Below, in pieces: positions 8,867 to 30,683 of a DNA stretch of 64,000 bases (positions are counted from its first letter, which is position 1; the number at the start of each line of letters is the position of its first letter). Below the pieces are notes generated by a model that was not told the origin of the DNA, did not search any database, and saw only the letters and a program-made list of their open reading frames with translations. This DNA is from Ianthella basta (Eukaryota; Porifera; Demospongiae; Verongiida; Ianthellidae): positions 6,089,185 to 6,153,184 of the forward strand of contig OZ025877.1 of the NCBI GenBank assembly GCA_964019415.1. The letters are read 5' to 3'. The translations under genes were made by a program, and so were the position numbers.

Positions 8867-11800
8867 TTACACATCAGTAACTTCGACCCCAGGGGTCAAA
8901 GTTCGATGTCTATCTAGTGGAATGTACACAAACTGCCCATGGGGACTTTGGCCAAGTAGTGGGTAACTATCTCCGCTATGTGGCTCCACAGGGGACGACA
9001 GGGTGTCCTTGTCTTGGTCCAAGTCAGGCAGCAGGTCGTGGTCCTACATAATAGGTAGTGAGGAATGGACAGTGTGTGTGTATGTGTATGTGTATGTGTA
9101 TGTGTATGTGTATGTGTATGTGTATGTGTATGTGTATGTGTATGTGTATGTGTATGTGTATGTGTATGTGTATGTGTATGTGTATGTGTATGTGTATGTG
9201 TATGTGTATGTGTATGTGTATGTGTATGTGTATGTGTATGTGTATGTGTATGTGTATGTGTATGTGTATGTGTATGTGTATGTGTATGTGTATGTGTATG
9301 TGTATGTGTATGTGTATGTGTATGTGTATGTGTATGTGTATGTGCGTGCGTGTGTGTGTGTGTGTGCGTGTGTGCATGGATGTTCATGAGTCTGTATATA
9401 TTTGCGTGCACACCTGTGTGAGCTGCATGGCCTTCTCAAAGATGTCAATTAGGTCAGAGAAGCTGGGTCTCCTCTCTTCCTCCTCCTCCCAGCAGGCTTG
9501 CAACAGCTGGTACCTACACAACAACACCAACAGAGTTAAATATCAGCTGTAGCAATGATTGCTAATAGAGGCAATGAATATACTTATGCAGCAATGCACA
9601 GAAGGGCAACTACCAAGTGTGACACAAAAAGTACACACACAGTATCAGTAGCCTAAATGTATCCCACAGTTGTGCAGGTCATAGCGGTGAAACAGCCTAC
9701 ATAGCACTGGAGTTTAAGTACTTCAACATGATTCTCACATGGGGTCACTGCACCCGGGAGGCTTCTCCAATCTGGCTCCAGTCTGGAGGTATTCTGTTAG
9801 TCCTCTGAAGCTGGTGGCGGCAGGCACACCCATGTACGGCACCTTGCCATAGGTCAGGACCTCCCACAGCAGGACACCATACGACCAACTGCATACAGTA
9901 ATGTCAGAAAAATACACAATGTACACTAAACACCAAACAGATACGTACACTTCAGCTTACACATTCATGTGGCCAACAATACAGCAAACATCTGAGGTCA
10001 CATGACACACATGTGACTTCAGCTGCACTGCACACATGGCTACCATTGGTCTCTGCTGCCGCCAACAGGTGCCAAAGCAGCCAGTAGACAGCTGTGCACT
10101 TTTCAAGACTCACACATCACCCTGAATAGTGTGCTTCCCCTCAATCAGCGACTCCAGTGCCATCCAGCGAGCCGGGAGGGGGCGGAATGTCATCCTCCTG
10201 TAGTAGTTCTTCTCTTCTGTGTCACGGGCCAGACCAAAGTCGGCCACCTTGAGGATGAAATTGTCGGCAATGAGCACATTCCTGGCTGCCAGGTCACGGT
10301 GGACACACTGTGGTGTGTGTGTGTGTGTGTGTGTGTGTGTGTGTGTGTGTGTGTGTGTGTGTGTGTGGTGGCAGGGAGGAGACATCATTAATCATGTGAT
10401 AAAGCTGCAATGTGCTGAAAACACAACAGTGCCAAGTACAGGTGTTAATGTGCTGTGTGTATGTACGTACCTTCATCTTCCTGAGGTGCTCCATTCCACG
10501 AGCCACCTGGGCACCAATGTTGAACAGGTCAACATCCTTCAGCAAACCAGCATTAGTGGTGTAATAGGGGGACTCTCCTGCACTGCTCGTCCCGTTTGCA
10601 GTGCCCACAGAGCTGCTGTATCCGCTGCTGACCCAACTGGAAGCAACACTCTTCGGCTTGCCCTGCTGGCTCCAGTAGCTCCTGACTTCAGAAGAGATCT
10701 GCATGTGATCACTGCCACAGTACCCACTGCTGGAGACAGTCAATTGGTGGCCACCTACGTAGTTACTTTCACTTTCTGAGAGGAATCCTCCCCTGGTGGA
10801 GCTCCCCCCACCCACATACCCATAACTAGGGGTGCTAGTGCTTCTGGCCTGTCGCAGTGGGGCCAGGGAAGTACGATAGGCACTGCAATCCCTCTCACTG
10901 CACCCACAGCCGGAGTCACTCTGCATCACGGAGCTCCCTGATGATGGAACATTCATATACAGTTTGGCATAGGTCCTAAAGGGGTCCTCTTTGTCATGGT
11001 GAGCCTCATGAGAAGCATGTGCCCCGTTCCTCTGTCCCCCAACATAGAAGTAACTGCTGATGGACTGCTGTGCAGGAGGACAATGCTGGGTGTATACCTT
11101 GCCCTTATGTTTCTGCTTGTCCAGCTGTAGGAGTTTGCAGCATTCCTTGAGGAAGTCTTTCAGGCTGCCCAGGGGGGCAAATTCCATGATGATACAGAGG
11201 GGACCATCTGAAGTCAAAGATACAGGAATAAAATAGTACATAACCCTTTCTACAGTGGGGCCTTTGACTGCAAAGGAATGATACAGCAACTTCACAGCAT
11301 ACGTATATATACCTGGTTGTGTGCACTGTCCAAGGAGATTCACAATGTTCGGGTGCGGTTTCAATGCTTTCATCAGCTGAAGCTCTGCCCAAAGGTCATC
11401 GACAGCACTTGGCTGAGGTGGGTCTCCTTTCACCACCTTCACTGCCACCACGTTAAGACCAGGGCGGTCAGGTAGGATCCCCATAGCCCTTGCCTTCAGC
11501 ACCTTACCAAAGTTGCCCTGGCCTGCACACAGATCAAAGAGCACAAGTCACATATCACTTGTTGCTGCAGTCATGCTGACAACACCAGGACATGCTGCAT
11601 ATACTTTCAATGGTGCAGCAAATGGCTTTGCTCTAAGTACGGTACATGCAACATGAGCTTGCTCCTGAGCTGGTTCCACTCTCTTATTACAGTTTGAATT
11701 AAAGAAGTGAAAATACAATACTGTATATGTACAAACATCAGAGAGGCTGTATTTCTAATTATTAGCAAGCATTAACAAAAGTAACTAAGATGCTACATAC

Positions 11801-30683: not shown

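Follow-up and report, generated by a model that had tools for sequence, protein, structure and literature searches.

A mosaic kinase-less gene in a tandem cluster of predicted immunoglobulin-type receptors of the sponge Ianthella basta

How can a receptor gene come to carry the outer domains of one neighbour on the backbone of another? The question is raised by three tandem genes, here called A, B and C, in a 64,000-nucleotide stretch of the Ianthella basta genome (contig OZ025877.1; G000:C10:6089185-6153184), which is referred to as the window and whose numbering is used throughout. The genes lie on the minus strand and are transcribed in the order C (30683-22385), B (20408-17209) and A (15549-8867). 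A sequence-only reading of the window had described a cluster of three receptors sharing an ectodomain, with a kinase in A and short, kinase-less tails in B and C. The present analysis agreed with this description: all three models had an intact open reading frame with GT-AG introns, the kinase domain of A was matched by Pfam (PF07714, E 3.2e-75), and a comparison of the B and C proteins with Pfam gave no kinase family match. Splice signals, open frames and comparison of the paralogues are the basis of the models, and the assembly searched comprised 209 Mb in 96 contigs.

The ectodomain follows a plan of one exon per domain, in which exon 1 encodes a predicted signal peptide, exons 2, 3 and 4 encode domains 1, 2 and 3, and exon 5 encodes a predicted membrane span. 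Introns 1-4 of all three genes, as well as intron 5 of A, which leads into the kinase, were in phase 1, which supports the proposal that uniform phase makes the swapping of ectodomain exons frame-safe. The proposed common phase-1 plan was thus accurate for the ectodomain and did not extend to introns 6-10 of the A kinase, where the phases were 1, 0, 2, 2 and 0.

Mosaic structure of gene C

Gene C (22385..30683, minus strand) encodes a kinase-less receptor of 558 amino acids in five exons (30629-30683, 27431-27955, 23983-24432, 23320-23730 and 22385-22620) of 55, 525, 450, 411 and 236 nucleotides (nt). Gene B (17209..20408, minus strand), also kinase-less and encoding 527 amino acids, has five exons (20354-20408, 19779-20240, 18576-19016, 17568-17978 and 17209-17423) of 55, 462, 441, 411 and 215 nt. 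An exon-by-exon alignment of A, B and C placed C nearest to A in exons 2 and 3 and nearest to B in the DNA of exons 1, 4 and 5. C is a recombinant gene. In BLASTN comparisons, exon 2 of C and 19 intronic nt at either end (27412..27974, minus strand) matched A at 92.5% over 563 nt, and exon 3 plus flanking intron of 75 and 71 nt (23912..24507, minus strand) matched A at 93.6% over 596 nt. Exon 4, extended by 23 and 28 nt into the introns (23292..23753, minus strand), matched B at 96.1% over 462 nt, a block attributed to recent exchange, while exons 5 and 1 were 77% and 73% identical to B. The mosaic noticed in the initial reading was thereby recovered, together with the identical A and C exon lengths of 525 and 450 nt and the similar flanking intron, of which the blocks contain 19-75 nt.

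Synonymous divergence (dS), obtained by Nei-Gojobori codon counts, separated these exons further. Between A and C, dS was 0.09 in exon 2 and 0.105 in exon 3, and the proteins were 86-87% identical in domains 1-2; between A and B, exon 2 was saturated, exon 3 reached 2.2 and protein identity was only 27-30%. Between B and C, dS was 0.043 in exon 4 compared with 0.45 in exon 1 and 0.60 in exon 5, corresponding to synonymous differences of 4/95 in exon 4 and 27/69 in exons 1 and 5 together (Fisher 1.8e-8, rounded counts). Since dS varies between exons, exons within one gene pair differ in age. Exon 5 of C encodes a protein segment with 57% identity to B and 24% identity to A; for exon 4 of C these values were 96% and 60%, and domain 3 of B and C was 57-60% identical to that of A. 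In exon 1 the DNA identity was 70% for B-C, 57% for A-B and 46% for A-C; given this and the equal length, exon 1 of C was assigned to the B type.

The direction of the takeover is recorded in intron 1 of C. This intron holds a relic (29837..30375, minus strand) consisting of the terminal part of a B-type exon 2 plus the opening part of the intron that follows, which matches B at 19563-19891. The relic exon is interrupted by an inverted-repeat element of 180 base pairs (bp) (30130..30309, minus strand) with TA on both sides and a single TA at the matching site of B; the element has at least 41 near-full-length copies in the assembly, itself included, at 88-100% identity (40 of 432 candidates scored). 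Once the element was excluded, 245 of 305 aligned bases agreed with B, giving a score of 197 against a maximum of 55 in 100 shuffles; the larger relic piece alone scored 152, and its shuffles reached at most 49. The relic has GG at the donor site where B has GT, and its frame is broken by gaps. C formerly had a B-type exon 2, which has since died, and the A-type exons 2 and 3 sit downstream of it. Because the dead B-type exon lies upstream of the A-type exons, A-type domains appear to have entered a B-type gene. C and B have a common duplication history, in that exons 1 and 5 of C and the relic exon 2 show comparable divergence from B. We consider it very probable that C arose as a B-type backbone that received A-type domains.

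Exchange among the three genes and its history

Sequence comparison indicates that the exchange reaches beyond C, as exon 4 of A starts like that of B and C and then diverges. A and B share a tract made up of 35 intronic nt and 131 nt from exon 4 (12744..12909, minus strand) with 97.6% identity over 166 nt in BLASTN, after which no further match was found; A and C were 93.5% identical over 154 nt at the start of the same exon. The first 44 codons (132 nt) contained 3 mismatches between A and B, 6 between A and C and 5 between B and C, whereas beyond codon 44 both A-B and A-C comparisons were saturated. The A-B identity therefore falls from 98% to about 43% within one exon. Recurrent exon-scale exchange among the three genes is a likely explanation.

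A two-stage history fits the observed blocks and their ages best, although its mechanism is inferred. During the first stage, a B-type duplicate would have recombined with A such that A-type exons 2-3 were placed after its own exon 2, while exons 4-5 stayed, or became again, B-type. The second stage would have consisted of exchange mostly confined to exons: B and C would have exchanged exon 4 in full, all three genes its first third, and A and C exons 2-3. The similarity of A and C in exons 2-3 may represent either a recent transfer or a later conversion; neither stage would need a special enzyme, and the phase-1 ends would keep either outcome readable. Beyond the exon-sized blocks, no convincing match emerged between A and C introns, and a single transferred tract was not directly seen. 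For this reason a late exchange on an old hybrid cannot be told from a recent transfer in two pieces: the data fit an old hybrid with later exon-limited conversion as well as two exon cassettes that were inserted separately and recently. A match of A intron 1 to C 29807-29957 (95/136; reached in 0/300 shuffles, and elsewhere 1 point above the maximum of 100 shuffles) was given no weight, as it was chosen post hoc and overlaps the B-like relic.

Differences between A and C were concentrated in two patches, at nt 27-86 of exon 2 and nt 124-183 of exon 3, each with 17 differences in 60 nt (0/3000 permutations in each). The proportion of synonymous differences (pS) was also raised there, at 0.27 and 0.44 compared with 0.06 and 0.045. 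The patch windows were picked by density and their Fisher values are descriptive only. The rise in synonymous change points to additional small-scale exchange or to old variation more than to selection alone. Given this rise and the choice of windows by density, positive selection is not supported for A or C.

Homologues from other contigs (P0001, P0003-P0012) served as comparison rows for domains 1 and 2 only. Among the best 8000 candidates by shared words, the whole C protein found one exon 3 homologue (P0001) and residues 1-640 of A found no relative; the exon 2-3 core of C found 11 among 375 candidates, one of them the window's own. Single scans of GTDB contigs with P0001 and of viral contigs with C gave no relative. 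The domain 1 tree (7 rows) joined A with P0003 (92/93) and C with this pair (91/88), and the domain 2 tree (10 rows) joined A with C (89/87), followed by P0005 (95/97); the B branch was very long in both. When residue differences between A and C were polarised, 9 fell on the A side, 7 fell on the C side and 9 stayed unpolarised in domain 1; the corresponding counts in domain 2 were 11, 3 and 5. P0003, an A-type exon 2 of another contig, differed from A (14020-14541) at 7/174 residues, 3 of which showed the C state; it may be an allele, orthologue or paralogue.

Encoded proteins and genomic surroundings

Gene A (8867..15549, minus strand, as are all its exons) was modelled with 11 exons encoding 1101 amino acids; exons 1-5 measure 79, 525, 450, 405 and 279 nt, and the kinase exons 210, 737, 194, 150, 100 and 177 nt. 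The predicted signal peptide in exon 1 (15471..15549) and the hydrophobic stretch in the putative transmembrane and juxtamembrane exon 5 (11851..12129) were read directly off the sequence. The A-type exon 2 (14019..14543, 525 nt; model and BLASTN) encodes domain 1, and the A-type exon 3 (12990..13439, 450 nt) encodes domain 2, for which an immunoglobulin (Ig) fold was predicted on the C copy, 87% identical to A; this model aligned with the Ig domains of FLT3 and KIT. Exon 4 (12470..12874) encodes domain 3, a V-set Ig match of 31.4 bits against a cut-off of 26, in which BLASTN and codon counts showed the first 44 codons to resemble B and C and the remainder to be diverged. No Pfam family matched domains 1-2. 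The models thus describe an Ig-like ectodomain in which domain 1 is unproven. Intron 2 of A also carries, at 13526..13614 (minus strand), a partial duplicate of the start of exon 3 and of the intron sequence before it, which matches A and C at 95.5% each.

The kinase exons 6-11 (8867..11522) contain the catalytic motifs VAVK, HRDLAARN and DFG, with a long kinase insert in exon 7 (10471-11207). An assembly search listing 139 kinase-like matches (137/1326 candidates scored), many of them short or with stops, placed five within the locus, all in exons of A. Among the best 60 of 843 rows, the closest PDB sequence relatives were an EGFR entry followed by FGFR1-3. Judged by its kinase domain and its ectodomain Ig domain, A is assigned to the Ig-type receptor tyrosine kinases.

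The tails of B and C comprise about 40-50 residues, as read from the translation, and a scan for YxxL/V/I, the pattern of immunoreceptor tyrosine-based inhibitory or activation motifs (ITIM/ITAM), found none. Both tails (17209-17423; 22385-22620) share the stretch R(T/S)(V/M)PPTKD, to which no established motif is assigned, and contain several histidines and serines. A 39-bp minisatellite (28049..29284, no strand assigned) lies in intron 1 of C between the relic and the A-type exon 2; its 31 registered positions are spaced 39 nt apart, and most show 97-99% identity. Intron 2 of C contains two plus-strand open frames (25569-26670), the second of which weakly matches a reverse transcriptase (E 0.0011; 19.2 bits, cut-off 29.6) and is probably a retroelement remnant.

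Searches of the assembly at E<=1 (8/8 candidates scored in each) returned 7 matches to A-type domains 1-2, one being the partial exon 3 copy, and 5 to B-type domains 1-2, none of them outside the locus; at E<=0.001, domain 3 of B matched A, B and C only. At this sensitivity the three genes form a family confined to one place in the assembly. Between B and A, head to head with A, lies a plus-strand open frame of 375 residues (15700-16824) with no Pfam match. Elsewhere in the window, an extended 14-bp repeat array has 57 registered positions (32112-33120), and minus-strand open frames match N-acetylglucosaminyltransferase II (MGAT2; 3810-4532, E 1.1e-25) and the SacI homology domain (Syja_N; 50222-51217, E 1.3e-17). 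A cathepsin/silicatein probe gave four matches in the assembly. Contig C6 (L046:38-6251) carries three tandem cathepsin-like open frames in which, by eye, the usual catalytic cysteine position is serine in two and tyrosine in one; the fourth match adjoins an ordinary CGSCWSF stretch.

Possible roles, competing explanations and known systems

Ig-type receptor kinases signal by dimerisation. A would accordingly act as an active receptor kinase through ligand-driven dimerisation, and C, with near-A domains 1-2, a B-type domain 3 and no kinase, would most likely pair with A or compete for its ligand. Because C presents nearly the domains 1-2 of A without a kinase, it may modulate A as a co-receptor or decoy, a role to which we give slightly less than even odds. 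B would be a kinase-less paralogue with its own ligand surface and, as its closeness to A is limited to part of domain 3, may bind another ligand. The overall account, in which tandem Ig-type receptors underwent exon-scale exchange, producing a mosaic C that modulates A, is given a probability of roughly 0.6. Of the initial interpretation, the mosaicism, the frame-safe ectodomain exons and the contrast between kinase and kinase-less members stood, while the decoy, co-receptor or self-recognition role is still conjecture.

Several observations, together with the lack of a convincing intron match described above, weigh against this account. The short exon 1 is the weakest point of the mosaic, as its protein shows 9/18 identical residues both for A-B and for B-C, and the B-C grouping of exons 1, 4 and 5 rests on three sequences and divergence levels without an outgroup. 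The smaller relic piece alone scored 51, equal to the shuffle maximum of 51, and no B-type exon 3 relic scoring above shuffles was found in C. The tree supports are moderate, and the domain 1 model was poor (mean predicted local distance difference test, pLDDT, 36.2).

Among the competing explanations, an unlikely one holds that the genes form a small self/non-self set, with A signalling, B and C serving as its ligand-like or inhibitory partners, and the set diversified as haplotypes exchange exons. The Ig-like ectodomains, the tandem cluster, exchange at several scales, the two dense A-C patches and the closeness of P0003 to A are consistent with it. However, synonymous change is also elevated in the dense patches, which thus give no sign of positive selection, and the locus holds only three genes with no external match to domains 1-2 or domain 3 at the thresholds used; this small copy number and the tails of B and C lacking YxxL/V/I weaken the case for a self-recognition locus. 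An equally improbable alternative is that C is a non-functional recombinant heading to decay. Its introns do contain a minisatellite, a repeat element and the weak reverse-transcriptase match, but all five exons are open with intact splice sites, and C carries fewer private changes than A relative to the outgroups (3 vs 11 in exon 3 and 7 vs 9 in exon 2; significance not tested).

Selection alone could in principle have preserved the shared exons while the introns drifted, and the identity blocks do coincide with exons; this is very unlikely given that B-C dS differs at least tenfold between exons, that the identity of A to B drops inside exon 4, and that intron edges of 19-75 nt are shared along with the exons. 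The tandem repeats and paralogues of the locus might invite an assembly or haplotype-switch artefact, which we judge more improbable still: a chimaeric join would be expected to be identical, whereas the C blocks are 4-8% off their A or B counterparts and are set among private flanks, a relic and an insertion. That C is an old tandem duplicate of A minus its kinase, with exons 1, 4 and 5 resembling B through common descent, would account for the closeness of exons 2-3 to A and is contradicted by the far greater protein similarity of exons 4 and 5 to B and by the relic of a B-type exon 2, with B-type intron 2 after it, in intron 1 of C.

In comparison with known systems, A resembles the class III/V and FGFR-type receptor tyrosine kinases (KIT, FLT3, VEGFR, FGFR) in its Ig-like ectodomain and in a kinase split by a long insert. 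It differs from them in the three-exon ectodomain, in domains 1-2 without a Pfam match and in its kinase-less tandem partners. Kinase-less adhesion molecules of Geodia reportedly resemble the Ig region of the Geodia receptor. An Ig-like domain is described for the receptor kinase of Geodia cydonium (PMC12018476), an Ig-like adhesion molecule of Geodia is named (PMC11999971), and Halichondria panicea has almost 200 putative cytokine receptors, mainly with tyrosine kinase, Ig and fibronectin III domains (PMC8242945). A shares with these sponge receptors the combination of Ig-like and tyrosine kinase domains, a likeness in described domain content; the accessible parts of these three sources describe no genomic mosaic for the Geodia or Halichondria receptors.

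B and C recall FGFRL1 (FGFR5), the kinase-less, short-tailed companion of FGFR1-4 in vertebrates for which decoy and co-receptor roles are reported (PMC10518040), in that their ectodomain is related to that of a kinase receptor and ends in a short tail without a kinase domain. This comparison concerns domain layout and does not imply orthology. FGFRL1 has three Ig domains, whereas domain 1 at this locus is not proven to be Ig, and recent exon exchange between tandem genes, as seen here, is not mentioned for FGFRL1 in the accessible part of PMC10518040. The invertebrate allorecognition loci Hydractinia alr and Botryllus fuhc are likewise multigene clusters of membrane receptors, some of the Ig superfamily, with polymorphic haplotypes and ITIM/hemITAM candidate receptors (PMC12065747); the present locus differs in having three genes, a true kinase in A and no ITIM/ITAM-type motif in the tails of B and C. 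The zebrafish NLR-B30.2 genes, with nearly 400 NLR proteins, provide a parallel for domain-specific gene conversion and exon shuffling between paralogues (PMC4852459), but are not surface receptor kinases. Among the titles and abstract openings listed in open-access literature searches, none described this locus or a comparable receptor mosaic.

The locus illustrates the birth of a kinase-less, ectodomain-sharing receptor through the recombination of neighbours. Ancient genes are the usual source of inferences on the shuffling of phase-1 Ig exons; at this locus the donor exons, the recipient, the abandoned exon and a marker insertion lie within 22 kb. A and C therefore offer a testable pair for decoy or co-receptor control, and the locus one for testing polymorphic domain exchange. 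A bolder reading, which we regard as improbable, is that of a small recombining receptor system in which repeated germ-line swaps of whole Ig exons and part-exon tracts create haplotype-specific domain combinations that an early-branching animal uses to recognise cells or self. If true, such a system would yield new kinase-less receptors that carry the ligand surface of the kinase receptor, together with hybrid domain 3 surfaces.
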